This document shows positions 25,445-49,729 of a stretch of DNA of 64,000 nucleotides, one piece after another. The notes beneath the pieces are model-generated. The model did not search any database. It was not told the DNA's origin and worked only from the letters and a program-made list of their open reading frames with translations. The translations under genes were made by a program, and so were the position numbers. The stretch is from Gemmatimonadota bacterium (GTDB lineage Bacteria; Gemmatimonadota; Gemmatimonadetes; Gemmatimonadales; GWC2-71-9), in contig JAZKBR010000004.1 in NCBI GenBank assembly GCA_040388535.1, positions 1-64,000 of the forward strand, in the 5' to 3' direction. The number at the start of each line of letters is the position of its first letter. The first letter of the stretch is position 1.

Positions 25445-28671
<3,227 letters not shown>

Positions 28672-28674
28672 GAT

Positions 28675-28705
28675 CAAAGCTATGTAGTCTCGGCCTCTGT
28701 GTCAA
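28675..28705 (-). promoter_or_regulatory. Candidate promoter of the kdsB operon
   Basis: On the minus strand TTGACA (28700-28705) is followed after 17 bases by TAGCTTTG (28675-28682), an exact match to the TAnnTTTG box of Bacteroidota-type promoters. The kdsB GTG follows the box by only 3 bases, so transcription would start at or next to the start codon. Confidence 0.45.
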
Positions 28706-28756: not shown

Positions 28757-29350
28757 TTAGCTGTCAAGCCCCGCGAGGCGGATGAAGTTCACCAGCAATT
28801 CCTTTCCGGCGGGGGTCGCGACCGACTCCGGGTGGAACTGCACGCCCCAGATGGGGAGCTCCCGGTGGCGCAGGGCCATGATCTCCGCGCCTGCCGGGCG
28901 GTCGCCCGACCAGGCCGTCACTTCGAGCTCCGTGGGCATCGACTCAGGCGCAATGACGAGGGAGTGGTAGCGCATCACGGTCATCGGGGATGGCAGCCCC
29001 TGAAACAACCCTTCGCCGTTATGCGCCACGTCGGTGGTCTTGCCGTGCATCATCCGGTCGGCCCGGACAACATCTCCCCCGAAGGCCTCACCGATCGCCT
29101 GATGTCCAAGGCAGACCCCGAGCAGCGGAATGCCCCGCTGCCCCGCCTCCCGGATCAGCGGAACAGCGATGCCGGCCTCTGCGGGAGTGCCCGGCCCAGG
29201 AGAGACCAGGATTGCCCGTGGGGCTCGATCGAGGGCCTCGGAGACCGTCAGCTGATCGTTCCGGACCACCTGAGGCTCGGCCCCGAGCTCACCGAGGTAC
29301 TGGACCAGGTTGAAGGTGAACGAGTCGTAGTTGTCGAGGACAAGGAGCAT
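28757..29350 (-). CDS. trpG: Anthranilate / aminodeoxychorismate synthase glutaminase subunit
   Basis: 197 residues from the ATG at 29350 ([19 protein letters not shown]). Class I glutamine amidotransferase with [11 protein letters not shown], nucleophile motif [12 protein letters not shown], and [14 protein letters not shown] with the catalytic His-Glu. It feeds ammonia to TrpE or PabB; neither partner is in the window, so whether it serves tryptophan or folate is open (pabA is the alternative name). Transcribed divergently from yaeQ. Confidence 0.92.
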
Positions 29351-29353
29351 CCT

Positions 29354-29360
29354 GAAAGTA
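29354..29360 (-). promoter_or_regulatory. Possible -7-like box before trpG
   Basis: Minus-strand TACTTTC lies 3 bases before the trpG ATG (TACTTTCAGGATG). It is a near match to TAnnTTTG and would give a leaderless mRNA. No good -33 element is seen, so this is weak. Confidence 0.2.
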
Positions 29361-33046: not shown

Positions 33047-33867
33047 CAGGCCGCCGTCAGAAACGTGAGGGAACCATTGGGAACCAGTCCGTCCTTCGCG
33101 AGGCGGCCGAAGAACTCGGTGAGGCCTGCGAGGTGTCGGTAGGAGAGTTCGTAGTCGAGATCACCGAGATAGGCGCGGCAGGTCGACGCGGGAATGCCGG
33201 TCCGAGCCGCGGCTTCGCCAGCAATGAGGTCGAGATGCTCGATCCCCCACGCCCGCGACTGCAGCAGCGCCTCGTGGACGCGGAGCACGGCGTCGCGGTC
33301 TGCCTCGCGCCGCGCGGCCCACACGGCAAAGACGAACGGGAGCCCGGTCCACTCCTTCCAGGCACTGCCGAGATCTTCGCATACGGGGTAGATGCCGCTC
33401 ATCCGAAGGTGCAGTGCTGCATCGCCAATGACGAGGACGGCATCATGTGGCAGCGACTGCAGCGTCGTGAGGTCCGTCGCCTCGGCCCGAGCCGTGGCAA
33501 AGTTCGGCTGGACTCCCCACCGATGCCGGCAGAGCAGTTCGAGCAGCAGCACCGACGTGCGCGAAGACGCCGTCCGGAGCACCGTGGCCCCCTCGAGTTC
33601 ACGCACGGGGCGGCGGGAAAAGAGCGCGACGCTGTGCACCGGGCCGTCGCAGGAAATCGCGAGGTTTGGCAGCAGGTGGTACGACGCTGCGTCGCGGGCA
33701 TACTCGACGGCGGAAACCACGCTGAGATCGAGCTCACCCGCCGCCAGCAGATCGTTGAGCTCCGCGGCCGTGGCGGACACCACGCTCGCAGGCGCCGGCA
33801 CGAGGCCGCGATCCATCGCGGCATAGACCGGCGCGGCGTTGATCCAGGGAATCCGCCCGAGCCTCAT
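33046..33867 (-). CDS. mqnA: Chorismate dehydratase
   Basis: 273 residues with the periplasmic-binding-protein fold of MqnA: LGRIPWINAAPVY at the start, ELDLSVVSAVEYAR, LPNLAISCDGPVHSV, LVIGDAALHL and CEDLGSAWKEWTGLPFVFAVWA. It converts chorismate to 3-[(1-carboxyvinyl)oxy]benzoate, the first committed step of the futalosine route. ATG at 33867 overlaps the mqnE stop (ATGA). Confidence 0.94.
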   Translation of the reverse strand: MRLGRIPWINAAPVYAAMDRGLVPAPASVVSATAAELNDLLAAGELDLSVVSAVEYARDAASYHLLPNLAISCDGPVHSVALFSRRPVRELEGATVLRTASSRTSVLLLELLCRHRWGVQPNFATARAEATDLTTLQSLPHDAVLVIGDAALHLRMSGIYPVCEDLGSAWKEWTGLPFVFAVWAARREADRDAVLRVHEALLQSRAWGIEHLDLIAGEAAARTGIPASTCRAYLGDLDYELSYRHLAGLTEFFGRLAKDGLVPNGSLTFLTAA

Positions 33868-35066
33868 GCGGCGTGCACCACTGGGAGCGAAGCGCGCACG
33901 GTGCCGCCTTGCGGAATCGCGAGTTCGCTGAAGTCGGTGCGGATCGATTCGTAGAGCGAGTTGCGCTCGACGGGTTCCTTGCCGGCATCCCGGATCAGTG
34001 CGACGAGTCCCTCGTAGGCCAGGTGCATCTGCGTCGTCGCGCCGGCCTCATGGTAGACGCGCTCAAAGACGACGGTCCCTTCCACGTCATCACAGCCGAA
34101 GGCCAGTGCGATCTGGGAGAGGAACGGCGTTACCATCGGCCAATGGGTCTTGACGTGCGGGATGTTGTCGAGGAAGAGCCGCCCGACCGCAATGTTCTTG
34201 AGATCCTCGAAGCCGGTCGTGGCCGTTCCGACGCGGCCCAGCTCGATCCCGAGTTCGTTGTGTTCGGTGTGGTACGCGAGCGGGATGTAGGTGAGGAAGC
34301 CCCCGGTCTCGTCCTGCAGATCACGCAGCATCGTCAGGTGCTCAATGCGGTCATCGGCGGTTTCGATATGTCCGTAGAGCATGGTACAGTTGCTGGGGAT
34401 GCCAAGCGTGTGTGCTTCGCGATGCACGTTGATCCACTCGGTACCGGTGAGCTTTCGCTCGGCGATCGTCGCACGCACGGCGGTCGAGAAGACTTCGGCG
34501 CCGCCGCCGGGCAGTGACGTCAGCCCGGCCTCCTTGAGCGCCACCAGCACCTCGGCCACGGAACACTTCTCGATGCGTGCGAGATGGGCGATTTCGACGG
34601 CCGTGAGCGCCTTGATGTGCACCTGCGGGTGACGTTCCTTCAGCCCGCGGATCATGTCGGTGTAATAGCTCAGCGCGAGCTTCGGATGCAGCCCGCCAAC
34701 GATGTGAAATTCCTTCGTCGGCGAGCCGGTTGCCTGCGCGGCCTCGTGATACACCTCTTCCAGGGAGCGGGTGTAGTGTCCATCCTCTTTCGGCATTCTG
34801 GCGAAGGAGCAGAAGGTGCAGGTGTTCCGGAGAATGCAGACGTTGGTCGGGTTGATATGCTGGTTGGCCGAGAAGTAGACCCGGTCGCCGTTCTTGCGGC
34901 GATTGGCGACATCGGCGAGGGTACCGAGGCCGATCAGGTCATCGCTGGCATAGAGGATTCGAGCATCGGCCGCGGTCAGGCGCTCGCCGGCATCGACCTT
35001 GTCGGCGATACCAAGGAGGGCGGGATCACGGAGGCGATGGCGCGGTACGTTCAGGGTCTGAGCCAT
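33864..35066 (-). CDS. mqnE: Aminofutalosine synthase (radical SAM) with altered cysteine motif
   Basis: 400 residues. The fold and neighbours fit MqnE: FSANQHINPTNVC, HIVGGLHPKLALSYY, KALTAVEIAHLARIEKCSV, SLPGGGAEVFS and THWPMVTPFLSQIALAFG. MqnE joins the MqnA product to the ribosyl part of S-adenosylmethionine. The [4Fe-4S] motif is not the usual CX3CX2C: the DNA reads Cys77-X5-Cys83-X2-Cys86 (CILRNTCTFC). The sequence around it is otherwise intact. First gene of the mqnE-mqnA-mqnC-ispF-dedA-xerD chain; mqnB, mqnD and later men genes are not here. Confidence 0.9.
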   Translation of the reverse strand: MAQTLNVPRHRLRDPALLGIADKVDAGERLTAADARILYASDDLIGLGTLADVANRRKNGDRVYFSANQHINPTNVCILRNTCTFCSFARMPKEDGHYTRSLEEVYHEAAQATGSPTKEFHIVGGLHPKLALSYYTDMIRGLKERHPQVHIKALTAVEIAHLARIEKCSVAEVLVALKEAGLTSLPGGGAEVFSTAVRATIAERKLTGTEWINVHREAHTLGIPSNCTMLYGHIETADDRIEHLTMLRDLQDETGGFLTYIPLAYHTEHNELGIELGRVGTATTGFEDLKNIAVGRLFLDNIPHVKTHWPMVTPFLSQIALAFGCDDVEGTVVFERVYHEAGATTQMHLAYEGLVALIRDAGKEPVERNSLYESIRTDFSELAIPQGGTVRASLPVVHAA

Positions 35067-35070
35067 GCCT

Positions 35071-35078
35071 GAAATCTA
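35071..35078 (-). promoter_or_regulatory. Possible -7-like box before mqnE
   Basis: Minus-strand TAGATTTC lies 4 bases before the mqnE ATG (TAGATTTCAGGCATG), a one-base mismatch to TAnnTTTG. A TTG about 15 bases upstream is at poor spacing. If used, the mRNA would be almost leaderless. Confidence 0.22.
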
Positions 35079-36482: not shown

Positions 36483-38873
36483 CTACGAACGTCCGTCGAG
36501 CGCCTCGCGGACGGCATCGGCAAGCTCGGCCGGGGAAAACGGCTTCGCGAGGAAGGGGGCCCCACCATACTCGGCGGCGACGAGCTCCTCGCTGTACCCG
36601 GACATCAGCAGGAGTCGGGTCTCCGGCCGCGTCTCGTGGATCCGTCGCGCAAGTTCACCACCACCCATGCCCGGCATCACCATGTCGGTGAGCAGGAGCT
36701 GGAGAGTGCCATTGTGCGCACTCGCGAGGGCCAGTGCCTCATTACCGTCGACTGCCACGAGAACGGTGTAGCCCAGCTGTTTGAGAACGCGCTCCGCCAG
36801 CCGGCGAATCTGGGGCTCATCTTCGGCGACCAGGATGGTCTCGGTTCCTCGCGGTGCCTCGTGCTCATCCCGGCTTGGCGGCGCCGGGTCCGGTGCACCA
36901 GGGGCGAGAGGCAACGCAATCCGGAACGTGGTCCATTCACCGAGCCGGGAGGTGACCTCGATGCGACCTCCGGCTTGCTGAATGATGCCGTAGCAGGTCG
37001 CCAGCCCGAGGCCAGTTCCCTGGCCCGCCGCCTTGGTGGTGAAGAATGGCTCGAAGATGTGCTCGCGCACGTCAGGTGCGACGCCGGTGCCCGTATCCGA
37101 TACCGTAACGATGACGGTATTCCCTTCGACCGTCGTCTGGATATGGAGCGTGCCTCCATTCGGCATCGCGTCGCGGGCATTGACGGCCAGGTTCGTGAGC
37201 ACCTGTTCGAACTGGGTGGGGTCGATCAGGACCCGTGCCGGCGATGGGGCGATGGTCGTCGCGATCGTGATCTTCTCTCCGACCAGTCGGCGCAGCAGTG
37301 AGTTGGCGCCCACAATGACCGTGTTGGCATCCACGACCCGGGGCTGCACCATCTGCTTGCGGGCGAAGGCCAGCAGCTGCCGGGTGAGTTCGGCGGCACG
37401 ATCCGACGACTGGACGATTTCGTTCAGGTCTCGCAATGCTTCCGGATCGCCGTGGCACCGCTCGCGCAGGAGCTGCGCGTAGCCGGCAATCGCCGTGATC
37501 AGGTTGTTGAAATCGTGGGCGATTCCGCCTGCGAGCCGACCCACCGCCTCGAGCCGGGCCGCTTCCGTGAGGCGACGCTCCAGTTGCAGTTGATCGTGGA
37601 CATCACGGATGATCATCAACAGGCAGTCGACGCCATCGAAATTGACGACTCGCCCGGACATGCGGCACTCGCGCAGGTGCCCGTCACCGGTCGGCAACGC
37701 GAGCGCAAATTCGCTGATGCTCCGGTCGGCCGCCAGCGCGGCAAGCAACTGCTCACGGCCTTCGGTCGAGCTCCAGAGCCCGGCTTCGATCGTCGTCCGC
37801 CCGATGAGTTCGTCACGCGGGCGCCCGGTCATCGACACAAGGACGTCGTTGACCTCGAGGATCCGACCATCGGCGTACCGAGTCAGGATGACACCGTCGG
37901 GGATCAGCGAGAAAAGGCGCGCGAACTTTTCTTCAGCCCCGCGTCGCAGCTGGGCATCACGCGCCTCGATTCGCGCGAGCTGACGGCTGCGGGCCAGGAA
38001 GGCCGAGAGGGCCATCAGCAGAACCACGAGCCCCACCCGCACGGCGAACGGGAAGAGCGGGCCGGTCGAGCGCGAGTCCCAGCCGCCGGCCGGCACCGAT
38101 TCCAGCGTCCAGGTCCGGTCGGGGAGGTGCACTTCCGTCCGGATCACTTCTCCTGCCTGCTCCAACCCTGGGCGCCCGGCAATGACAGCGCCGCTGCTGT
38201 CACGCAGTCGCATCCAGAGTGATTGCTGGTTGTCGAATCCTGACTCGTGCAGCAGCGGGTCGACATCGAGGACAACGGCCGCAACGCCGAGCACCTCGCC
38301 CTTTGCATCACGGAAGGCGAGCCGGCCGATGAGGCCGCGCCCACCCTGAAAAAGCTGGATCGGGCCGGAAAGCACCACGCCATCTGACTCCAGCGCGTGG
38401 CGGAGTTCGACGCTGATCTCGGGTCTCGGATCGTGAAGGATGTCTCGGCCGACCGCCGCCTCGTTGCCGGCGAGCGGTACCGTCTGCGTGATCCGACCGT
38501 CGACGACGTACTGGATGCTGCGGACGCCCGGGACACCCTTCAGGATCCGGGTCCCGAATGCATCGAAGTCCTGGGCCAGCCCTGGCCGCCCCCAGTTGAC
38601 AGCGAGGAATGCAGCGACGCCATCGAGCAACGCCATGCGGCGGTTGATGGCCGTCTCGAGCGCGTTCGCCGACGGAATCGTTTCCTGGATCACCTGTTGG
38701 CGGATGATCACGGTATCGCTGGAAATCGCAGAGCGCCGCACGAGGACCGCGAGCAGAATCGCGGCCCCGGCGATCAGGGCGGCAGCATGCAACGGGCGAA
38801 ACGAGGCGACCCCCCGCCGGGGCAGCCCGGGGAGGGTCGTCGGATGGTCCGATGGTTCTGGCGCGCGGGACAT
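36483..38873 (-). CDS. CHASE-PAS hybrid histidine kinase, coupled to fabF
   Basis: 796 residues from the ATG at 38873, which shares one base with the fabF stop (TGATG). Membrane helix 1 is near residues 28-45; a periplasmic CHASE-type sensor domain (about 60-270, with [20 protein letters not shown] and [18 protein letters not shown]) ends at helix 2 (about 278-296). Then PAS ([23 protein letters not shown]), HisKA with [11 protein letters not shown] and His453, HATPase_c ([29 protein letters not shown]) and a receiver with Asp730 ([12 protein letters not shown]). The ligand is unknown; CHASE domains bind small molecules. No output gene follows directly; the ECF sigma is 97 bases downstream. 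Confidence 0.92.
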
Positions 38874-40108
38874 CACATCGCCCGGACAGCCAGCGTGGCG
38901 TTGTGGCCACCGAATCCAAAGGAGTTCGAAAGCGCGACCCGAACCTTCTGTGTCCGCTTCACGTTCGGCACGCAATCGAGGTCACAATCAGGATCGGGAT
39001 CGTCGTTGTTGATCGTCGGCGGAATCTCACCACGGCTCGCGACCAGGAGCGAGATCACCGCTTCGATCGCTCCAGCGGCGCCGAGGGCGTGTCCCGTCAT
39101 CGACTTGGTCGAGGCAAACACCAGGTCGCGTGCGCGCGGACCGAACACCGCCTTCACGGCGTTCGTTTCGGCGATGTCGCCCTGCGAAGTCGAGGTGCCG
39201 TGGGCGTTGATGTAGTCAACCTCATCGAGGCCAATCCCGCCGCTCTCGAGGCAGTCGGTCATCGCCTGCATCGCTCCGTGACCATCTTCCGGCGGCGAGG
39301 TTATGTGATAGGCATCGCCAGATGCCGCGTAGCCGATGACCTCTCCGAGGATCGGCACGCCGCGTGCCTTGGCGTGTTCATACTCCTCGAGCACGAGCAT
39401 TCCCGCACCGTCGGCGAGGACGAAGCCGTCGCGACCGCGGTCAAACGGCCGTGATGCCGCCGCCGGATTCTCGTTGCGCGCGGAAAGGGCTTTCATGTTC
39501 GAGAAGGCGGCCACGGTGAGCCCGGTGATCGCGGCCTCGCACCCGCCGGTCAGCATCACATCGGCAATGCCGCCGCGGATCATCTGCCACGAAGTCCCGA
39601 TGGCGTGGGTCCCCGACGCGCAGGCCGACACGGTGGCGAAATTGGGTCCGCGCAGGTTGTAGCGAATCGAGGCGAGGCCCGCAGCGATATCCGGGATGAA
39701 CATCGGGACGAAGAACGGTGAGACGCGATCAGGGCCCTTCGTGAGGAAGGCCTCGCAATTGTCCTGGTAGGTCTGCATACCCCCGATGCCCGCGCCGATG
39801 ATCGCGCCGGCACGCTTCGGGTCGGCCATCTCGCCATTACTCAACCCCGCCTGCACCATGGCCTGGTGCGCAGCGGCCAGGCCATACTGGGCGAAGAGGT
39901 CGTACCGTCGCGCTTCCTTCCGGTCGATGTACGGCGACGGATCGAAGTTCTTCACTTCACAGGCAAACTGCACCGCGAAGCGCTCCGGGTCGAACTTGGT
40001 AATGCGGGCCGCGCCGGAGACGCCGGCAAGCAGGTTCGCCCATGACTCTTCCACGGTGAGCCCCACCGGGGTCACCAGGCCGAGTCCGGTTACGACGACG
40101 CGGCGCAC
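38873..40108 (-). CDS. fabF: 3-oxoacyl-ACP synthase II
   Basis: 411 residues from a GTG at 40108, 4 bases after acpP. Active-site Cys is in VSACASGTHA, the two histidines in NAHGTSTSQGD and KSMTGHALGAAG, and the glycine-rich end is NSFGFGGHNA. It extends acyl-ACP by two carbons in fatty acid synthesis. Confidence 0.97.
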   Translation of the reverse strand: MRRVVVTGLGLVTPVGLTVEESWANLLAGVSGAARITKFDPERFAVQFACEVKNFDPSPYIDRKEARRYDLFAQYGLAAAHQAMVQAGLSNGEMADPKRAGAIIGAGIGGMQTYQDNCEAFLTKGPDRVSPFFVPMFIPDIAAGLASIRYNLRGPNFATVSACASGTHAIGTSWQMIRGGIADVMLTGGCEAAITGLTVAAFSNMKALSARNENPAAASRPFDRGRDGFVLADGAGMLVLEEYEHAKARGVPILGEVIGYAASGDAYHITSPPEDGHGAMQAMTDCLESGGIGLDEVDYINAHGTSTSQGDIAETNAVKAVFGPRARDLVFASTKSMTGHALGAAGAIEAVISLLVASRGEIPPTINNDDPDPDCDLDCVPNVKRTQKVRVALSNSFGFGGHNATLAVRAM

Positions 40109-40112
40109 CCGG

Positions 40113-40352
40113 TTACTTCCCGAGCTTCTCGTTGAGATACTTCAGGGCATCGCCGACGGTGCGAAGCTTCTCGGCCTCTTCGTCCGGGATGTCGATGTCG
40201 AATTCCTTCTCGAAGGCCATCACCAGCTCCACCGTATCGAGGGAGTCGGCGCCCAGGTCCTCCATGAACGAGGCCTCGGGGGTGAGCTTCTCGCGCTCGA
40301 CGCCGAGTTCCTCGACGATGATGTCCTTGACCTTCTCCTCTACGTCGCTCAT
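40113..40352 (-). CDS. acpP: Acyl carrier protein
   Basis: 79 residues, acidic and helical. The phosphopantetheine serine is Ser37 in [10 protein letters not shown]. The ATG at 40352 has gaggcag upstream, one of the clearer ribosome binding sites, as expected for a highly expressed gene. It carries growing acyl chains for all Fab enzymes. Confidence 0.98.
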
Positions 40353-40389
40353 CTCTGCCTCTGTTGCCTGGTGTGAAGTGATGACCTGC

Positions 40390-41133
40390 TCAGCCGATCA
40401 TGCCGCCGTCGACCACGAGTACCTGCCCCGTCACGTACCCGCCGAGATCCGAGGCGAGGAAGAGAACGGCTCCTGCAATATCACCCGGGCCGCCGAGGCG
40501 CTTGACCGGGATCGACTCCAATAACGCGGCCCGCGTCGCCTCGGGCAAGGCACCGGTCATGTCCGTCTCGATGAACCCCGGGGCGATGCAATTGGCCAGG
40601 ATCCCGCGACCCGCGTATTCCTTGGCCACCGACTTGGTGAAGCCGATCAGCCCGGCCTTGCTGGCGGCGTAATTCGCCTGCCCCGCGTTGCCGGTGACGC
40701 CCACGATGCTGCTGATGTTGATGATCCGCCCCTGACGACGCTTCATCATCCCCTTGATCACGGCCTGCGTCGCGACGAAGGCGCCCTTCAGGTTCGCTGC
40801 CAGCACTTCGTCCCAATCGGCCTCGCTCAAGCGGATCAGGAGGTTATCCCGCGTCAATCCGGCGTTGTTCACCAGGATATCGATCGGCCCTAGCGCCGCT
40901 TCGGCGTCGGCGATCGCCAGCCGAAGGGAGGGCGGATCGGTGACGTCGCATGCGAAACCTCGCGCACCCGTTCCGAGTTCCGAGGCGACCCTTTCGGCCG
41001 CATCGAGAGAGCGGCCGAGAATCGCTACCTTGGCTCCGGCGCGGTGCAGCGTTTCCGCTATCGCACGCCCGATCCCGCGGGTGCTGCCGGTGACGAAGGC
41101 AACGCGGCCAGTGAGGTCGATGGTGATGCTCAT
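40390..41133 (-). CDS. fabG: 3-oxoacyl-ACP reductase
   Basis: 247 residues of a classical short-chain dehydrogenase from the ATG at 41133 (ATGA with fabD). NADP-binding [22 protein letters not shown], catalytic Ser in NISSIVG and Tyr/Lys in NYAASKAG, and the C-terminal [17 protein letters not shown] are present. It reduces 3-oxoacyl-ACP. Confidence 0.96.
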
Positions 41134-42062
41134 CGGGCCAGCCACTTGTCGATATCGTCGGCGGTGCCAAGGGGAGTGCAGCTTGCCCCCGGAACGATCC
41201 GCTTGAGCAGGCCGGTGAGCACGGCACCTGGGCCGATTTCAAGCCACTGGGCCTCGGGGAAGCGCTCCGCCAGACGTTGCATCGACGCGACCCAGCGGAC
41301 CGGCGCGGTGAGTTGCGCGGCGAGCAGTTCGACCGCGGTATCACGCGATTTCGAAAACTCGGTGGTGGCATTCGCAATCACGGGAAACGCCGGCTCTCCG
41401 AAGGGTGCGACGTCGAGCGCCTCGCGAAGTCCGGGCACCGCCGGCTCCATCAGCGGTGAATGAAACGCGCCACTCACCTTGAGCGGCAGCACTCGCTTGG
41501 CGCCAGCCGACTTGCACAATTCGCCGGCCCGTTCGACCGCGGCAGGGTCGCCCGAAATCACGGTCTGGTCGGGTGCGTTGAGGTTCGCCGCGACCACGGT
41601 CCCGACGCCTGACGCGGTCGCGCCGGCGCAACTCGCCTCGACCTCGGCGGTCCCGAGCCCGAGGATGGCCGCCATCGCGCCCGGGCGTGCCTGCCCCGCC
41701 TGGAACATCAGGGCACCGCGCCGACGCACCAGCAGGGCCGCATCGGCCGCGTCCAGGGCGCCAGCGGCGACGTAGGCGCTGTATTCCCCGAGCGAGTGAC
41801 CAGCGGCGGCCGCGACGTTGCCAAGCTTGCCAGAGAGGATCGCGAGCACAGCTGCCGAATGCGCGAGAATGGCGGGCTGGGCGTTGTGCGTCAGCGTGAG
41901 CTGATCCTCGGGGCCGCTCCACATCAGCGTGGTGAGGGGGGTCTCGAGCGCGTCGTCGATGCGCTGCATGACAGCGCGCGCCTCGGGGAATCGCTCCGCC
42001 AGGTCCTTCGCCATGCCGACCTTCTGTGCCCCCTGCCCGGGGAACAGCAGGATGGTCACCAC
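41130..42062 (-). CDS. fabD: Malonyl-CoA:ACP transacylase
   Basis: 310 residues. FPGQGAQKVGMAKDL at the N-terminus, active-site Ser90 in GHSLGEYSA and catalytic His in SGAFHSPLM. It loads malonate onto ACP. Two adjacent GTG codons (42062, 42059) can start; the second overlaps the fabH stop as GTGA. Confidence 0.96.
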   Translation of the reverse strand: MVTILLFPGQGAQKVGMAKDLAERFPEARAVMQRIDDALETPLTTLMWSGPEDQLTLTHNAQPAILAHSAAVLAILSGKLGNVAAAAGHSLGEYSAYVAAGALDAADAALLVRRRGALMFQAGQARPGAMAAILGLGTAEVEASCAGATASGVGTVVAANLNAPDQTVISGDPAAVERAGELCKSAGAKRVLPLKVSGAFHSPLMEPAVPGLREALDVAPFGEPAFPVIANATTEFSKSRDTAVELLAAQLTAPVRWVASMQRLAERFPEAQWLEIGPGAVLTGLLKRIVPGASCTPLGTADDIDKWLAR

Positions 42063-43048
42063 CGAAGCACCACACTGCCCCAGGCGAAGCCCGCGCCGAA
42101 CGAGACCAGCATGATGATCATCCCCGGCTTGAGGCGACCCTCCTGCTGCGCCTGCGCCAGTGCCAGCGGAATGCTTGCGGACGAGGTGTTCCCGAAGCGG
42201 TCGACGTTCACGAAGACCTTGTCCATCGGGATCCCGGCGTGCTTCGCGGTCGCCTCGATGATCCGTTGATTTGCCTGATGCGGCACCAGGAGGTCGATGT
42301 CTTCTGGCGCGAGTCCGGCACGACGTATCGCCTCGTCAGTCGAGCGGCTCATGGCGAGCACGGCCGCCTTGAACACTTCACGGCCGGCCATCTTCATCAG
42401 GTGACGCTTGTCGCGGAGAATTTCTTCGTTCATCGGCTCGGTCGAGCCGCCCGCCGGAATGTAGAGCAGGTCGGCGAGGTCGCCATCGGCGCCGAGATAG
42501 GTCGCCAGCATTCCGCGCTCATCGGTGGCACGCTTGAGTACGGCGGCGCCCGCACCATCCCCAAAGAGAATGACGGTCGAGCGATCCTGCTGATCGACGA
42601 TGCTCGAGAGCTTCTCGGCGCCGACGACCAGGATGGTGTCGCCATTGCCGGTCGCCATCAGCCCTTCGGCCACCGTGAGCCCGTAGACCCAGCCCGGGCA
42701 GGCGGCCACGACGTCAAAGGCCCACGCGTTCTTGGCGCCGAGCGCGGCTTGCAGGTCACACGCGGCAGACGGCAGGCGACGATCGGGGGTGACGGTCGCG
42801 AAGACGATGCCGTCGAGGTCGGCTGCGGTAATGCCGGCCTGCGCCATCGCCTGATGCGCGGCCACGAGTGTGTAGCTGGTCAGCGACTCGTTGACGTCGG
42901 CAATGCGGCGTTCACGAATGCCGGTCCGCTCGACGATCCATTCGTCGGAGGTCTCGACCGTGCGCTCGAGATCGGCATTGGTCAGCACCCGAGCCGGGGT
43001 AGCCGAACCGATGCCGGCGAAATAGGCGATCGGGCGCCGGATGCTCAT
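42056..43048 (-). CDS. fabH: 3-oxoacyl-ACP synthase III
   Basis: 330 residues. The triad is Cys117 in AACPGWVYGL, His in LVPHQANQRI and Asn in RFGNTSSASIP. Most FabH proteins have AACSG or AACAG around the cysteine, so ACPG is an uncommon variant. It begins fatty acid synthesis by joining acyl-CoA to malonyl-ACP. ATG at 43048 overlaps plsX (ATGA). Confidence 0.94.
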   Translation of the reverse strand: MSIRRPIAYFAGIGSATPARVLTNADLERTVETSDEWIVERTGIRERRIADVNESLTSYTLVAAHQAMAQAGITAADLDGIVFATVTPDRRLPSAACDLQAALGAKNAWAFDVVAACPGWVYGLTVAEGLMATGNGDTILVVGAEKLSSIVDQQDRSTVILFGDGAGAAVLKRATDERGMLATYLGADGDLADLLYIPAGGSTEPMNEEILRDKRHLMKMAGREVFKAAVLAMSRSTDEAIRRAGLAPEDIDLLVPHQANQRIIEATAKHAGIPMDKVFVNVDRFGNTSSASIPLALAQAQQEGRLKPGMIIMLVSFGAGFAWGSVVLRW

Positions 43049-44058
43049 GCGTCGGTCTCCTGGCTGCGCAGCGCGAACTCGGCCGCGATGTGTTCACTCA
43101 GGCCACCGCGCACTGATTCGACCGCCTTCTTGATGGCATTCTTGATCGCGTTGGCCGTCGACGAGCCGTGACAGATGATCGGCACGCCGCGCACGCCCAG
43201 CAGCGGACCGCCACCGTATTGCGAGTAGTCCAGGAAGCGCATCAGCGGCTTCATCGCGTCGGACTCGAGCAGCCCCGGGCTCTCCCGCCCGAGCAGCGAA
43301 GCGACGAGGCGACCCATCGACTCGTAGAACTTGAGCACGACGTTGCCGACAAAACCATCGCACACCACCACATCGACACGGCCATGGCGCGGATGCGGGA
43401 CGGCGATGTCGCGGCCTTCGATGTTGCCGACGTAGTTGAGATGCGGGGATTTGAGCAGGACCTTGTGCGCCTCGCGCACGACGGCGTTGCCCTTCTCGTC
43501 TTCTTCGCCAACGTTGAGCAGGCCGACCTTGGGCTCGTTGCGGCCGACGACATCGCGCATGTAGATCGAGCCGAGGTAGGCGAAGTTCACCAGTTCCTTG
43601 ACCGAACAGTCGACGTTCGCACCGGCATCGAGAACCAGCACGGGTCCCTCGGCGGCAGGAAAGAGCGACGCGACGGTGGCGCGATCGACGCCATCGTGCA
43701 GACCGAGGAGGATGGTGGCTGCGGCGAGGGAGGCCCCGGTGTTGCCGGCCGAGACGAACGCATCGACCAGACCGTCACGATGGAGGCTGATGCCCACGAC
43801 CAACGAGGAGTTGGGCTTGCGGCGAACCGCAGACAGCGGCTTTTCGGCCATCCCGATGACTTCGGTGGCCTCGACAATGCTGAGGCGCGACCGGTCAATC
43901 CCGGGGTGGCGGGCGAGGTGCTCTTCAATGACCGCCGGCTGCCCAACCAGGGTCAGCGTGAAGTCCGGCGGCAGCTCGCGCAGGGCGAGGGCCGCGCCGT
44001 CGACTTCAGCGGCCGGCGCGTGGTCTCCCCCCATCGCGTCGAGCGCGACGCGGATCAC
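43045..44058 (-). CDS. plsX: Phosphate acyltransferase PlsX
   Basis: 337 residues from a GTG at 44058, directly after rpmF. ALDAMGGDHAPAAEVDGA, SAGNTGASLAAATILLG, VVVCDGFVGNVVLKFYE and HGSSTANAIKNAI are conserved. It makes acyl-phosphate from acyl-ACP for glycerolipid synthesis. Confidence 0.96.
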   Translation of the reverse strand: MIRVALDAMGGDHAPAAEVDGAALALRELPPDFTLTLVGQPAVIEEHLARHPGIDRSRLSIVEATEVIGMAEKPLSAVRRKPNSSLVVGISLHRDGLVDAFVSAGNTGASLAAATILLGLHDGVDRATVASLFPAAEGPVLVLDAGANVDCSVKELVNFAYLGSIYMRDVVGRNEPKVGLLNVGEEDEKGNAVVREAHKVLLKSPHLNYVGNIEGRDIAVPHPRHGRVDVVVCDGFVGNVVLKFYESMGRLVASLLGRESPGLLESDAMKPLMRFLDYSQYGGGPLLGVRGVPIICHGSSTANAIKNAIKKAVESVRGGLSEHIAAEFALRSQETDA

Positions 44059-44061
44059 AGC

Positions 44062-44244
44062 TTAGTTGTCCTCGACCTCGAGCCGCTTCTTCCCCGCGTA
44101 ATAGCCGCAGGACGGGCACACCCGGTGGGGCAGGCGCGGAGCACTGCAACGCGCGCACGCCTGAGCCGGAATCCCCTGCGCGGTATGGTGCCCGCGACGG
44201 AGGCGCTTGCGCGACTTCGACATCTTTCGCTTCGGTACGGCCAT
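44062..44244 (-). CDS. rpmF: Ribosomal protein bL32
   Basis: 60 residues. The basic start MAVPKRKMSKSRKRLRRGHH is typical, and Cys30, Cys33, Cys43 and Cys46 (CARC, CPSC) form the zinc site of the zinc-containing type. Its place between yceD and plsX is widely conserved. Confidence 0.97.
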   Translation of the reverse strand: MAVPKRKMSKSRKRLRRGHHTAQGIPAQACARCSAPRLPHRVCPSCGYYAGKKRLEVEDN

Positions 44245-44251
44245 CGGTCCC

Positions 44252-44728
44252 TCAGTTGGTCGAGCCGGCGACCATGCACCCGCATGGACCGGCGTTCAAA
44301 TCCGCGCCGCAGGCAGCGCAGAATCCCTTGCAATCAGGTCGGCAGAGTGGAAATGCCGACACCCGCAGCGCGAGCTCTTCCCGGACAGCCGCCGCCACGT
44401 CGATCAGGTCGACATGCGTCGGGAGAGGGTAGACGCTGGGATCTTCGATCAGCTCGGGGTCCCCGGAAAAGAGGACGTCCACTTCATCGTCGATTTCCTG
44501 CGTCACCGGCGTCAGGCAACGGCGACACTCGCCCGCGACCGTGGCCTGGATCCGCCCGCGCCAGAGGTAATTCCCCTCCGACGTGGACTGCAACTCCCCC
44601 ACCACCTGCACCGGGCCCGTCAGGGCCACGTCCAGCCCCTCAAGGGCGCTGTCAGTGGGGGCAATCTGCCCGTCGGTCTCGACCGGACCCCCCTTCAGCT
44701 GACGCACGTCCACGCGAAGCATAGCCAT
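44252..44728 (-). CDS. yceD: YceD/DUF177 family protein
   Basis: 158 residues from the ATG at 44728; an ATG at 44722 is an alternative. The body has GRIQATVAGECRRCLTPVTQEIDDEVDVLF and the C-terminus carries a cysteine cluster (LCRPDCKGFCAACGADLN, GPCGC) that could bind a metal. DUF177 proteins are linked to 23S rRNA accumulation and always sit next to rpmF. Gene order from here to fabF equals that of E. coli. Confidence 0.9.
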   Translation of the reverse strand: MAMLRVDVRQLKGGPVETDGQIAPTDSALEGLDVALTGPVQVVGELQSTSEGNYLWRGRIQATVAGECRRCLTPVTQEIDDEVDVLFSGDPELIEDPSVYPLPTHVDLIDVAAAVREELALRVSAFPLCRPDCKGFCAACGADLNAGPCGCMVAGSTN

Positions 44729-44760
44729 CAAAGCTAGCGGCGCGGCCCCGGCTGGGTCAA
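44729..44760 (-). promoter_or_regulatory. Candidate promoter of the yceD-rpmF-fab operon
   Basis: On the minus strand TTGACC (44755-44760) is followed after 18 bases by TAGCTTTG (44729-44736), the same octamer as before kdsB. The yceD ATG at 44728 touches the box and the ATG at 44722 follows after 6 bases, so a transcript from here would be leaderless and favour 44722. Confidence 0.42.
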
Positions 44761-44767
44761 GCCGAGT

Positions 44768-45202
44768 TCAGGCCACCCCGAGGAGGGCTAACTCACGCTC
44801 TGGAAAGAAGAAAGCGATTTCCCGGGCGGCATTCTCGTCGCTGTCGGAGCCATGGACCGCATTCCGGCCCTTCGATTCCGCGAACAGCTTGCGAATGGTG
44901 CCCTCGGCGGCCTCAGCGGGGTCGGTAGCTCCGATGGCCACGCGCCAGGCCGCCACGGCATCGGCACCTTCCAGAGCCAGGGCGACAACCGGGCCCGAGC
45001 TCATGAACTCGACCAGTTCGCCGTAGAAGGGGCGTTCCCGGTGGACCGCATAGAAGGCTTCGGCTTCGGTCCGGGTCAGGCGGACCATCCGCATCGCCCG
45101 GATACCGAACCCCTGCTTCTCGATATGGGCGAGGATCGCCCCGCCCTTCCCGGTGCTCACGGCATCGGGCTTCAGCATCGCAAACGTCATCCGACCAGCC
45201 AT
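44768..45202 (-). CDS. ndk: Nucleoside diphosphate kinase
   Basis: 144 residues from the ATG at 45202, with aggag six bases upstream. [10 protein letters not shown] at the start, the phospho-histidine His117 in RNAVHGSDS, and [13 protein letters not shown] are diagnostic. It balances nucleoside triphosphates, including the CTP and UTP used by the envelope genes. Confidence 0.97.
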
Positions 45203-45213
45203 CAAGAACTCCT

Positions 45214-45231
45214 CGCGGCCCCGCGGCCGCG
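45214..45231 (-). promoter_or_regulatory. GC hairpin next to the ndk ribosome binding site
   Basis: A 7-bp perfect stem (cgcggcc 45214-45220 with ggccgcg 45225-45231, loop ccgc) sits between sucD and ndk, ending right before the aggag that serves ndk. It may be a sucCD terminator, although no T-run follows, or may influence ndk translation. Confidence 0.35.
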
Positions 45232-45252
45232 TTCAGTACGTGCAAAACGTGA

Positions 45253-46125
45253 CTACTTGAGGCGCGCCTTCAGCAGCTCGACCACGTCGGCTGGGCGGCG
45301 CATGATGCCGATATTGGCGGACTCGAAGGCCTGGAACTTCTCTTCCGCGGTGCCCTCGGAGCCCGAGATGATCGCGCCCGCGTGGCCCATCCGGCGTCCC
45401 TTCGGCGCCGTCTGACCGGCCACGAAGCCGCAAACCGGCTTCTTCACGTGGGCCCGGATGTACTCGGCAGCTTCCTGTTCCGCCGTCCCGCCGATTTCAC
45501 CCAGCATGACGATCGCTTCGGTCTTCGGATCGGCGTTGAACGCCGCAATCACGTCGATGAAGTTGGTGCCGACGATCGGATCGCCGCCGATACCGACGCA
45601 CGTGCTCTGCCCCAGCCCGGCACCGGTAAGGTGATGGACGACTTCGTAGGTGAGGGTGCCCGAACGCGAGACCAGGCCGATCGGACCCGGCTTGCAGATC
45701 GAACCAGGGATGATGCCAACCTTGGACTCGCCCGGCGTGATCAGGCCGGGGCAGTTCGGTCCGATGAGCCGGACATTCCGCTGCGCGATGTAGGGCATCA
45801 CGGTGGTCATATCGAGCACCGGCACGCCCTCGGTGATGCAGACTACCAGTTCGATACCGGCATCGGCCGCTTCCTTGATCGCCGCCGCCGCCATGGCGGG
45901 CGGCACATAGATCACGGAGCAGTTCGCGCCGGTTTCGGCGACCGCCTGAGCCACCGTGTGGAAGACCGGCACCTTGGATTCAAAGGTCTGGCCGCCCTTT
46001 CCGGGCGTGACGCCGGCCACGATGTTGGTGCCGTATTCCATCATCTGGCGCGCGTGGAACGATCCCTCACGGCCGGTGATGCCCTGGACCACCAGGCGCG
46101 TGTCCTTCCCGATCCAGATGCTCAC
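45253..46125 (-). CDS. sucD: Succinyl-CoA synthetase alpha subunit
   Basis: 290 residues from a GTG at 46125 (GTGA with sucC). [16 protein letters not shown] binds Co[14 protein letters not shown] and SRSGTLTYE are conserved, and [11 protein letters not shown] holds the phospho-histidine. It works in the TCA cycle with SucC. Confidence 0.97.
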
Positions 46126-47261
46126 GCAGCCCCCTTGGCGAGTGCAACGGCCTTCGCAACAGCCGCGTCCATGTCATTCATTGCCGACATCCCGACCGAT
46201 TCGAGAATGCGGAACGCTTCGACTTCGTTGGTGCCAGTGAGGCGGATCACGATGGGCACCCCGACCTTGAACTGCTTGGTCGCGGCCACAATGCCGTTCG
46301 CAACGTCATCGGTGCGGGTGATGCCACCGAAGATGTTGAACAGGATGACCTTCACCGCAGGATCGGCGGTGATGATCTTCAGCGCGTTCACTACCTTCTC
46401 CGGATTCGACGAGCCGCCGATGTCGAGGAAGTTGGCGGGCTCACCACCGTGGTACTTCACGAGGTCCATCGTCGCCATCGCGAGACCGGCACCGTTCACA
46501 ACACAGCCGACGTCGCCATCGAGCTTGATGAAGGTGAGGTTGGCGCGGCGCGCAGCGACTTCGCTCGGCTCCTCGCCCGACTCGTCACGGAGCACCGCGA
46601 GATCGGGGCGACGATCCAGCTCGTTGTCGTCGATGATGATCTTCGCGTCGAGCGCGAGCACCTTGCCGTCCGGTGTCGTGACGAGCGGGTTGATCTCGGC
46701 GAGCGAGCAACCGTTGGCCATGAAGACGCTGTAGAGCTGCGTCAGAATCCTGGTGGCCGCCTTGACGTGATCCCAGTCACGGTAGAGCGCGAGCGCGAGC
46801 TTGAGTGCCTGGTGGGGCAGCAATCCGTCGCGCGGATCGATGGCCATCCGGGTGATCTTCTCGGGCGTCTTGGCCGCGACTTCCTCGATGTCGACGCCGC
46901 CGGCATCCGACACCATGAAGACCGGCTTCTGCGACGCGCGATCGAGGATCAGGCCGACGTAGCTCTCGGTGGCAATGTCGGCAGCGGGAACCACCAGCAC
47001 CTTGTTGACGATCAGCCCCTTGATCGACATGCCGAGAATCTGCGATGCGCATTCAAGCGCTTCGGCGGGGTTGCGGGCGAGCTTGACGCCGCCGGCCTTG
47101 CCGCGGCCGCCGACGTGCACCTGCGCCTTGACGACCACCGTGCCACCCAGCCGGCGGGCGATGGCCTCGGCCTCGGTCGGTGTGCTGGCGACGTCGCCGT
47201 CAAACATGGGAATGCCGGCAACCTTCAGCAGGTCACGGGCCTGATATTCGTGCAAGTTCAC
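46122..47261 (-). CDS. sucC: Succinyl-CoA synthetase beta subunit
   Basis: 379 residues from a GTG at 47261, with gaggt five bases upstream. The ATP-grasp domain begins [54 protein letters not shown] and the CoA-ligase part with [32 protein letters not shown] and [13 protein letters not shown] follow. First gene of a sucC-sucD unit. Confidence 0.97.
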
Positions 47262-47295
47262 GCGTACCTCGACGAAAGGATCAAGAGACAGCCAT

Positions 47296-47303
47296 CAAAA
47301 ATA
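47296..47303 (-). promoter_or_regulatory. Candidate -7 box upstream of sucC
   Basis: Minus-strand TATTTTTG is an exact TAnnTTTG match, 34 bases before the sucC GTG. This leaves room for a short leader with the gaggt site. No clear -33 element was found. Confidence 0.35.
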
Positions 47304-47326
47304 GCCGTGCGCAGGGCGCCCCGCCA

Positions 47327-49729
47327 CTAACGCGGGCGACGCTCGAGCACCTTCCGCAACTCTTCGAAGGCCCGCCCAAAGGCGGTCAGATCGTGTCGCG
47401 ACAGGGCTGAATCGGCCTGCCGCATCCAGCTCTGTGCGGCGGTCAAACGCCCGGCATCCGTCGGGCCGGTGGGGCTGGCAGGGCGCCCCGCCCCGAACAG
47501 GGCGGCCCATGCCTCGGCACCACTCCGGGCGCCGATGGCGCGCTCGCCAACGGCAGCCCCGAGGCCGAGCAACGCCGGCCTGCCGCGGGCAGGGGCCGCA
47601 AAGATCGGCTGCCACGCCATCAGTTCGCCAGCCACGAACCGCCAACGCAATGGCGGCGCGAAGAAACTGTCACCGGCGGCCTGAGCGGAATCGCGGAGAT
47701 GCGCCAGCGTGAGGTCCCGGGCCCAGTCGCGTTCCAGTTCACGTCCATTGGCAATCGCGGCTCGTTCGATCCGATCGATCCTCAACTGAGGCACCCCGTT
47801 CAGCCGCGATGCGGTCACCAGTGCGGAGAGGACCCGCCTGGCCGGATCCTCGAAGACGGCGACCCGGGTCGGCTGCGAACCGCTGCTCCAGACAACCATG
47901 GCTCGCTCGGCAGGTCCATCCGGACTTTCGCGACCTGGCCGCCGGCCGAGGCCCCATGCCGGCCCTTCGAGGACCTGCAGCTGGCTCGCCAACCAGGCGG
48001 AGGGGTAGCCGAGTTGCTGCCGCACCTCTGGCGGCATTGCCGCGGCCTCTGCCACGACGCCCGGTGCAAAGCGCGACCAACTCGCCGCAAGTGAATCGGC
48101 CCCTGGATCCCGGTAGATCGTGATGGTCCCCGACACGGCATCCATGGTCGCAACGAATGCCGGGACAACGCCTGACACCTCGGCCCCACGCCAGCGCAGG
48201 CGGGTTGCCTGGGGCGCAATCGGCAAGGGCAACATCCCTTGAACTACCCAGGTAATCCGGTTTCCCAGCGCCATCGGCACCGGGGGTGACCAGGTGGCCA
48301 TCGGCAGAATTGCTGCGGCACGCTCAGCCGGATCGAGATGCCAATCCACGGCGCGCGCCGCGCCCGGTGTCACCATTCCCCAGGCCTGTCGTGCCCACGC
48401 CAGCCCGAGGTTCCGAAGCGGTCCTCCCATCGGCACACCGGTCAGCGTGAAGCGCCACTCGTCGGCATCTGGCCGCAGCCGTGGGTCGGCCAGTGTGAGC
48501 AGTGGAACGGCAGGCTCGGTCCTCGACAGGAGCACCGGACTGCCGTCGCTCGCGGCCACTCCTTCCGCAATCGCAAGCAGGTCGACACGATGGCGGTCGG
48601 CAGCGGCAGTCGCGGCAACGAGCCACCCCGGCTGCGCCCCTGCCGGACCACCGACAACCGCGGGGTTTGCCCCGAGGAGTGTCCTGCCGTCTCCCTCGAA
48701 CCAGCGCGACAGGATGGCATCATCCCAGATCGCCGCAGGGACTTCGCTGCTGTCACTGGTGCGGGGCTCGGTCGCCTCGCGGATACCCCACGCGATGCTC
48801 TCGAGCTGCCTGATTTCGGCACTGGTCACGGCCGGCGGGGTGGCTTCGGCAGCGAGCGCCGGGATGATGACGCGCTCCACCAGGATCCCCATCACGAGCA
48901 CGCTCCAGCCACTCAGCAGGAGCGCGTGTCGACCGCGCTGCGCCCACATCAGGCTCAGGAGCGAAACCGCCAGCGCTATCCCGGCCATGATCTGCGCGGC
49001 GCGAATCCTCGTCAGCGCGGCCACCGCGCCGAGCCCGGGGTCGTTCCCCGCAGCGATGCGGTAGGGCTCGATGAGGTAACCGGCGGCGAGCACGCCGGCG
49101 AAGAGCGTCAGGAGGCCACCCAGGTGTCGCCGCGCGTCGGGGTGAACGACCAGCGCTTTCTGGTCGCGCTTGATCCCGCCGATGCCGGAGTAGAGCATCG
49201 TCGCGACGGCGAGCCCGAGCACGATGAGTGTCACGGCGAAATCGTGGGCGAGTTCCCACACCGGCAATTGCGCGACGTAGACGCCGAAATCCTCTCCCAG
49301 GAGCGGATCCACCACGCCGTAATGCACACCCTGCCAGGCGAGCGCTACCGGCCCACGCCAGGCGCGCGCCCCGGCGCCAGTGATGAGGCCGAGCAGCACA
49401 CCGGTGCAGACACCCGCGACCCAGAGGTAGCGGACCGGGATGGCTTCGCGGACCTGGAGATTTCCGATATTGCGGGTGACGGAGACCGTCGCCACCGCGC
49501 GGGCAACCAGCAGCGCTTGCAGCGCGAACCAGCACGAGGCGATGAGGATGGCGGCGCCATCGAGCGCGAGACCAAGGAGACGCCACCGGGTGATGGCGCT
49601 GACGGCGGCGGGCGAAAAGGTCGCGGCCCACCAGCGCTCGGTCAGGAACGCGACGCTCCAGCGGCCAACGTACAAGAGGACAACCACCACCGCGATACCG
49701 CTCAACAAGCGGCGCGTTCGCGGCGTCAT
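47327..49729 (-). CDS. UPF0182 family membrane protein
   Basis: 800 residues. About seven membrane helices fill the first 320 residues; HYGVVDPLLGEDFGVYVAQLPVWEL between helices matches the UPF0182 (COG1615) signature of a DP-x-F-x-x-D motif followed by LPFW. The long soluble remainder has DPAERAAAILPMATWSPPVPMALG and an ending without the acidic tail of many homologues. The function of the family is unknown. It follows the phosphohexomutase gene by 4 bases, probably as one transcript. Confidence 0.8.
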   Translation of the reverse strand: MTPRTRRLLSGIAVVVVLLYVGRWSVAFLTERWWAATFSPAAVSAITRWRLLGLALDGAAILIASCWFALQALLVARAVATVSVTRNIGNLQVREAIPVRYLWVAGVCTGVLLGLITGAGARAWRGPVALAWQGVHYGVVDPLLGEDFGVYVAQLPVWELAHDFAVTLIVLGLAVATMLYSGIGGIKRDQKALVVHPDARRHLGGLLTLFAGVLAAGYLIEPYRIAAGNDPGLGAVAALTRIRAAQIMAGIALAVSLLSLMWAQRGRHALLLSGWSVLVMGILVERVIIPALAAEATPPAVTSAEIRQLESIAWGIREATEPRTSDSSEVPAAIWDDAILSRWFEGDGRTLLGANPAVVGGPAGAQPGWLVAATAAADRHRVDLLAIAEGVAASDGSPVLLSRTEPAVPLLTLADPRLRPDADEWRFTLTGVPMGGPLRNLGLAWARQAWGMVTPGAARAVDWHLDPAERAAAILPMATWSPPVPMALGNRITWVVQGMLPLPIAPQATRLRWRGAEVSGVVPAFVATMDAVSGTITIYRDPGADSLAASWSRFAPGVVAEAAAMPPEVRQQLGYPSAWLASQLQVLEGPAWGLGRRPGRESPDGPAERAMVVWSSGSQPTRVAVFEDPARRVLSALVTASRLNGVPQLRIDRIERAAIANGRELERDWARDLTLAHLRDSAQAAGDSFFAPPLRWRFVAGELMAWQPIFAAPARGRPALLGLGAAVGERAIGARSGAEAWAALFGAGRPASPTGPTDAGRLTAAQSWMRQADSALSRHDLTAFGRAFEELRKVLERRPR

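Follow-up and report, generated by a model that had tools for sequence, protein, structure and literature searches.

Introduction

The primary promoter of the Bacteroidetes combines a -33 element, TTTG, with a -7 box, TAnnTTTG, and is read by sigma-ABfr. This sigma factor lacks region 1.1 and is substituted in regions 2.3-2.4 and 4.2, and the box of F. johnsoniae is described as nearly devoid of G at positions -10 and -9 (PMC6847099). Relative to mapped transcription starts in Flavobacterium psychrophilum, the TAnnTTTG box lies at -12 to -5, and 5.5% of mRNAs are reported as leaderless (PMC9723704). For B. thetaiotaomicron, ~3.7% of 5' UTRs are reported to be under 10 nt.

A second described system belongs to leaderless genes. 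Zheng and colleagues presented a TANNNT box lying ~12 bp upstream as diagnostic of such genes; leaderless TANNNT promoters are known in high-GC phyla (PMC3160421). In Deinococcus-Thermus and Actinobacteria, the leaderless TANNNT genes are described as having few Shine-Dalgarno-like words and an optional -35 element (PMC3160421, PMC12340547).

Supplementary tables aside, no promoter consensus for Gemmatimonadota was found in the open-access literature searched. The phylum is unmentioned in the main texts of PMC3160421 and PMC12340547. The latter is a motif scan of complete genomes across the bacterial domain with its species in supplementary tables, which may already list the leaderless -10 of some Gemmatimonadota. 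In their available text, PMC10783764 gives only the anti-Shine-Dalgarno type for the Gemmatimonadota class, and PMC10949492 and PMC4593161 give no Gemmatimonadota promoter.

Here, the octamer TAGCTTTG is considered at two gene starts, those of yceD and kdsB, in a 64-kb stretch of DNA from a Gemmatimonadota bacterium (the whole stretch is called the window). Comparison of sequences indicates that the octamer is very probably one -10 spelling of the lineage's housekeeping promoter, TTG(AC)-N17/18-TANNTT, which would be read by a Bacteroidetes-type sigma factor and give leaderless or nearly leaderless mRNAs.

Sequences and Methods

The sample comprised 959 kb of the genome (GC ~65%): the 64-kb window, 90 kb selected for holding TAGCTTTG, and two contiguous blocks (805 kb) that were picked once the octamer list was known and contain 6 of the 15 TAGCTTTG sites. 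Because the choice of sample followed the octamer list, the TANNTT test was redone without TAGCTTTG and on the 805 kb alone. Genes were called with a simple hexamer coding score, and words before the start codons of 479 genes were then counted. In a comparison of the PlsX protein, the ten best matches among named loci (L040-L049) all carry the label Gemmatimonadetes.

For the yceD footprint, 40 loci (L010-L049) were given and YceD was found in 37. Removal of a partial locus (L029) and two duplicates (L040 and L044) left 34 distinct rows, one of which (L013) had unaligned first codons that were extrapolated. The motif search covered 61 related genomes, the genome under study being G000. The non-FCB control is a pool of plsX neighbourhoods drawn from many species (L054-L119 minus L056 and L066) and not a single genome. 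The 16S rRNA gene, whose promoter was wanted, was not found in the genome's own assembly; the same search matched in 9 of 14 control genomes.

Promoter Elements in the Window

The elements and genes discussed below all lie on the minus strand.

44755..44760, minus: -35 element TTGACC, promoter of the yceD-rpmF-plsX-fab operon
44729..44736, minus: octamer TAGCTTTG before yceD; the -10 core TANNTT is 44736..44731, with 6 nt to the ATG
44722..44725, minus: predicted transcription start zone of yceD, at the ATG (44722..44720) or at most 3 nt before it, placed from the Flavobacterium box at -12..-5 (PMC9723704)
44252..44722, minus: yceD, first gene of the operon (Pfam PF02620), start taken from conservation
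38873..44244, minus: rpmF, plsX, fabH, fabD, fabG, acpP and fabF, downstream of yceD (NCBIfam matches)
28700..28705, minus: -35 element TTGACA of the kdsB promoter, read from the window sequence
28675..28682, minus: octamer TAGCTTTG before kdsB (27922..28671, by NCBIfam), with a 3-nt gap to the GTG
47296..47303, minus: TATTTTTG, the window's third TANNTTTG; first T 42 nt from the GTG (47261) of an ATP-grasp/CoA-ligase gene of succinyl-CoA synthetase beta type (Pfam)
29355..29360, minus: -10 box TACTTT, 10 nt before the ATG of a glutamine amidotransferase gene (28757..29350)
35073..35078, minus: -10 box TAGATT, 12 nt before the ATG of a CofH/MqnC-like gene (33864..35066)

The preliminary description had reported the same octamer at nearly the same distance from TTGAC before two operons, and this is confirmed. 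The minus strand reads TTGACC-N18-TAGCTTTG-ATGGCT-ATG at 44760..44720 and TTGACA-N17-TAGCTTTG at 28705..28675. The -10 letters are TAGCTT at both sites, not TATAAT, and the first T of the box lies at -14 from the start codon of yceD and at -11 from that of kdsB. A canonical sigma70 promoter was rejected, since a scan of 43000-48000 returned none and TATAAT occurs once in the noncoding DNA upstream of the 479 genes. A known RNA element was also rejected, with no Rfam match and no tRNA in the window.

The octamer had been placed next to both start codons. That holds for kdsB, whose GTG follows after 3 nt. For yceD, the ATG at 44722, 6 nt on, is the likeliest start, rather than the ATG touching the octamer, because the former is conserved among relatives (GTG in one row) and the latter is present in 4 of the 10 rows of the genus only. 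The GGCT immediately 5' of the yceD ATG (window 44722-44728) is strongly conserved in Gemmatimonadota (L010-L049), and is perhaps a start-site or discriminator sequence. Judged by gene spacing, yceD through fabF would form one transcript.

The succinyl-CoA synthetase beta-type gene at 47261 is presumably sucC, and the CofH/MqnC-like gene is one that we take to be mqnC. The window's NCBIfam matches also identify ndk and the succinate-CoA ligase alpha subunit. Directly after TATTTTTG (window 47281-47303, minus strand), ATGGCTGTCTCTTGA forms a five-codon reading frame that ends before the GTG of the beta-type gene; this is possibly chance.

TANNTT Is a General Box Upstream of Genes

Among all 4-letter gapped words located 14-10 nt before start codons in the 959 kb, TANNTT has the highest z score (35 occurrences vs 1.65 expected, z 26). 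The peak does not depend on the octamer or on how the sample was chosen: 33 boxes remain vs 1.09 expected with all TAGCTTTG excluded, and the two contiguous blocks alone give 27 vs 1.02. The longer word TANNTTT is found 17 times at this position vs 0.24 expected. The Shine-Dalgarno word GGAG is commoner (81) but less enriched (12.8 expected). Among the 35 peak boxes, TANNTTTG accounts for 5 and TANNTTTC for 10, so the final TG of the octamer is not a general feature of the box, even though TANNTTTG is found 18 times upstream of genes in this genome vs 0.68 expected.

The -35 element appears to be optional: a TTG lies at a spacer of 17 or 18 in 18 of the 127 noncoding upstream TANNTT sites, vs 21 over the 21 spacers outside 16-19 taken together, which is the enrichment expected of a -35/-10 pair. 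Genes with a peak box are also distinct at their starts. A Shine-Dalgarno-like word precedes 4 of the 35, vs 190 of the 479 genes overall, and ATG is the start codon of 30 of the 35, vs 347 of the 479. Transcripts from the box are therefore, on this analysis, probably leaderless.

The same scan was applied to other genomes. In G043, of the same order, TANNTT again ranks first at the leaderless position (12 vs 0.84 expected); upstream of genes, TANNCT is as enriched as TANNTT (4.3- vs 3.9-fold), and TANNTTTG shows no clear enrichment (3 vs 1.70 expected). In G088, of the same class, there is no TANNTT peak (2 vs 0.97; TANNAT 4 vs 0.59), and TANNTTTG is not clearly enriched upstream of genes. 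Upstream of genes in the Bacteroidetes genome G092, TANNTT stands at 3.6-fold and TANNAT at 0.6-fold, with a small TANNTT peak (5 vs 0.73); the Zixibacteria genome G093 gives 2.0-fold and 1.4-fold. The pooled non-FCB loci give 7.4-fold for TATAAT, 2.4-fold for TANNAT and 1.7-fold for TANNTT. Since TANNTTTG is enriched 3.1-fold (9 vs 2.9) in these loci too, it is the weaker as a stand-alone marker. Support for the promoter is strong in the genome itself and its family; it is fair for a second family of the order, and for a family further away within the class it is weak.

The Probable Primary Sigma Factor

Among the RpoD-type proteins that the genome encodes, the best match (C1:113287-114153, ~289 aa) sits in an open frame of 302 codons, with ~106 residues before WWIRQ. 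A frame of this length is too short to include region 1.1. The protein is 58-61% identical to the best sigma in one Zixibacteria, one Bacteroidetes and one Chlorobiota record, a range that leaves out Chlorobiota G095, which gave a 142-aa fragment only (49% identical). Identity to the best sigma in one Acidobacteria, one Desulfoscipio and one Betaproteobacteria record is 39-45%. The DNA-recognition segment compared, which we take to be region 2.3-2.4, reads KFISYAVWWIRQ[AS]ILQALAEQSRIVR in the Zixibacteria, Bacteroidetes and Chlorobiota set, with small variants in the Gemmatimonadota rows. The other type reads KFSTYATWWIRQAITR[AS]IADQARTIR in 4 of 6 rows, with near variants in 2. A tree of 28 rows splits the two types with support of 100/100; the node uniting the Gemmatimonadota rows is weak (71/56), and the tree tool warns of long branches meeting.

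Four RpoD-type paralogs are present in G000 (C1:113287-114153, C1:436881-437591, C7:118150-118860 and C1:717814-718533; L004-L007). All four carry the Bacteroidetes-type KFISYAVWW[IV]RQ. Three differ downstream in the recognition helix, and because of this they may read variant -10 boxes. In Zixibacteria G093, a short sigma of Bacteroidetes type coexists with a longer one belonging to the other type's group (L190, L203).

The mechanism proposed is that a primary sigma factor of Bacteroidetes type, without region 1.1, would bind TTG(AC)-N17/18-TANNTT, in which the -10 core is TANNTT, often TANNTTT, and the -35 element is optional. Transcription would begin ~12 nt after the box's first T, which predicts a start at ~44724 for yceD (ATG 44722) and ~28670 for kdsB (GTG 28671). 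As these predicted starts fall on or within ~3 nt of the start codons, both mRNAs would be leaderless or nearly so, and would be translated without a Shine-Dalgarno sequence.

The box could instead be an ordinary leaderless TANNNT promoter of the Deinococcus or Actinobacteria kind in a GC-rich genome, with no true Bacteroidetes-like feature. Leaderless TANNNT promoters are indeed described in high-GC phyla (PMC3160421), and all four TANNNT forms peak at -14..-10. Within the genome, however, the other three forms do so far more weakly than TANNTT (TANNAT, TANNCT and TANNGT, 10, 10 and 7 vs ~1.6 expected each), with or without the octamer counted, which means that T at position 5 is preferred and not obligatory. 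This preference and the Bacteroidetes type of the sigma factor make an ordinary TANNNT promoter unlikely.

Conservation of the Core and Drift of the Octamer

The 34 distinct Gemmatimonadota rows at yceD keep the promoter core. TTG is present in all 34, TTGAC in 28 (absent in 6), TANNTT in 29 (absent in 5), and TTGAC together with TANNTT in 24, with a spacer of 17 in 22 rows and 18 in 11. Within the genus (10 rows), identity is 100% over the TTGAC block and 44% over the spacer. The octamer is far less constant: TANNTTTG occurs in 9 of the 34 rows, all within the genus, and TAGCTTTG in 2. It is thus the promoter core, and not the octamer, that selection preserves, as TTGAC and TANNTT persist while TAGCTTTG is left in two rows.

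At kdsB, a match was found in 48 of the 61 genomes, and the full motif with the same 3-nt gap adjoins the gene in at least five (G000, G002, G004, G015 and G035), a count that covers the exact motif only. Over the 61 related genomes, TTGAC-N-TANNTTTG has 167 sites vs 31 for a reversed-pattern control that is inflated by G031 (163 vs 21 without it). The promoter-like character given to the element at the outset is borne out, and its position before yceD and kdsB is kept in related species. In G034, G024 and G019, near-identical sites of the style TTGACAAAA-N-GATTTTn-CGGGGTAGCTTTG recur in several family members, which suggests another conserved gene start with the same promoter.

The preliminary description went on to propose shared control of LPS and fatty acid synthesis, that is, a dedicated regulator or alternative sigma factor acting on TAGCTTTG to co-regulate kdsB and the fab genes. 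The identical octamer with TTGAC at nearly equal spacing in both operons speaks for this, as does the finding that TTGAC stands at the proper distance from only 3 of the 15 octamers in the genome. The genome-wide list, however, is not limited to envelope genes. The genes after other TAGCTTTG sites include an AraC-type regulator, a PnrA-like binding protein, a fumarase/aspartase-type lyase, a QueF-like protein and a multihaem cytochrome. With products this diverse, an octamer that drifts at yceD while the generic core stays, and a TANNTT box that is general in the genome, the regulon was rejected as very improbable; the general promoter accounts for what yceD and kdsB share. Co-regulation would gain from a regulator that binds TAGCTTTG without binding TATCTTTG.

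Slightly less probable again is that the box is a translation-initiation signal instead of a promoter. Its peak at 14-10 nt before starts and the scarcity of Shine-Dalgarno-like words there would suit such a signal, but the 17/18-nt distance to TTG is the geometry of a promoter, and TANNTT shows further enrichment at -40..-36 and -35..-31 from starts (12 and 17 vs 1.85).

Chance repetition within one window is the least probable explanation, its likelihood close to nil, and was rejected on the conserved footprints at two loci and on the placement of the octamer relative to genes, even though the genome count roughly matches the figure scaled from shuffles. Exactly two copies of the octamer lie in the 64-kb window (shuffle mean 0.19; 2 reached in 0 of 100 shuffles). 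The 3.72-Mb genome holds 15, a number close to the ~11 expected by scaling the window shuffle mean and therefore unremarkable. Random placement relative to start codons, which the preliminary description had named as grounds for refutation, is not what the sites show: 10 of the 15 lie outside called genes vs ~8% noncoding in the sampled sequence (P = 3.4e-8), and 9 of these 10 precede a called same-strand start by 11-187 nt, the tenth having an uncalled ATG 14 nt downstream. The other 5 lie within called ORFs.

Implications

A broader reading is that Gemmatimonadota have a promoter code of their own, intermediate between sigma70 and Bacteroidetes, in which a Bacteroidetes-type sigma without region 1.1 would read TTGAC-N17/18-TANNTTT and many leaderless mRNAs would exist beside Shine-Dalgarno mRNAs. 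We hold this tentatively, leaning slightly against it, because support is weak in G088 and the TG extension is missing in G043. If it is true, the change of A to T at position 5 of the -10 box would have arisen before Bacteroidetes, Chlorobiota, Zixibacteria and Gemmatimonadota diverged, and the losses of the TTGAC -35 element and of Shine-Dalgarno sequences would be later events in Bacteroidetes.

A usable promoter rule would aid the annotation of starts and operons in the little-cultured Gemmatimonadota, amend start-codon calls, that of yceD among them, and help in designing expression tools. The hybrid promoter also offers a testable intermediate for the origin of the unusual Bacteroidetes promoter.

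Comparison with Known Promoter Systems

With the E. coli sigma70 promoter (TTGACA-N17-TATAAT), the promoter shares the -35 element TTGAC(A/C) and a spacer of 17-18, and it differs in having TANNTT instead of TATAAT as its -10. With the leaderless TANNNT promoters of Deinococcus-Thermus and Actinobacteria, phyla compared here by published description, it shares a box ~12 nt before the start, few Shine-Dalgarno-like words, and an optional -35. It differs from them in the preference for T at positions 5-7 and in a sigma factor of Bacteroidetes type.

The likeness to the Bacteroidetes primary promoter lies in the TANNTTT core as the -10/-7 box, with TAGCTTTG matching TAnnTTTG at both sites, and, judging by the protein sequence, in a primary sigma without region 1.1 that carries a recognition segment of the sigma-ABfr type. 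The differences are threefold. The -33 TTTG is replaced by TTGAC at 17/18 nt. G in the middle of the box is common (in TANNTTT boxes, 23 of 56 at -10, the third letter, and 8 of 56 at -9), unlike in F. johnsoniae. Leaderless placement is frequent, whereas the figures reported for F. psychrophilum and B. thetaiotaomicron are low (5.5% and ~3.7%). Because it departs from the Bacteroidetes pattern both in the -33 TTTG and in the avoidance of mid-box G, the Gemmatimonadota promoter is not filed under that family. It is most likely a hybrid, with a -35 resembling that of sigma70 promoters, a -10 resembling that of Bacteroidetes, and leaderless placement, which suggests that the little-studied Gemmatimonadota read promoters in a Bacteroidetes-like way. 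What is new here is a variant combination of known promoter kinds.
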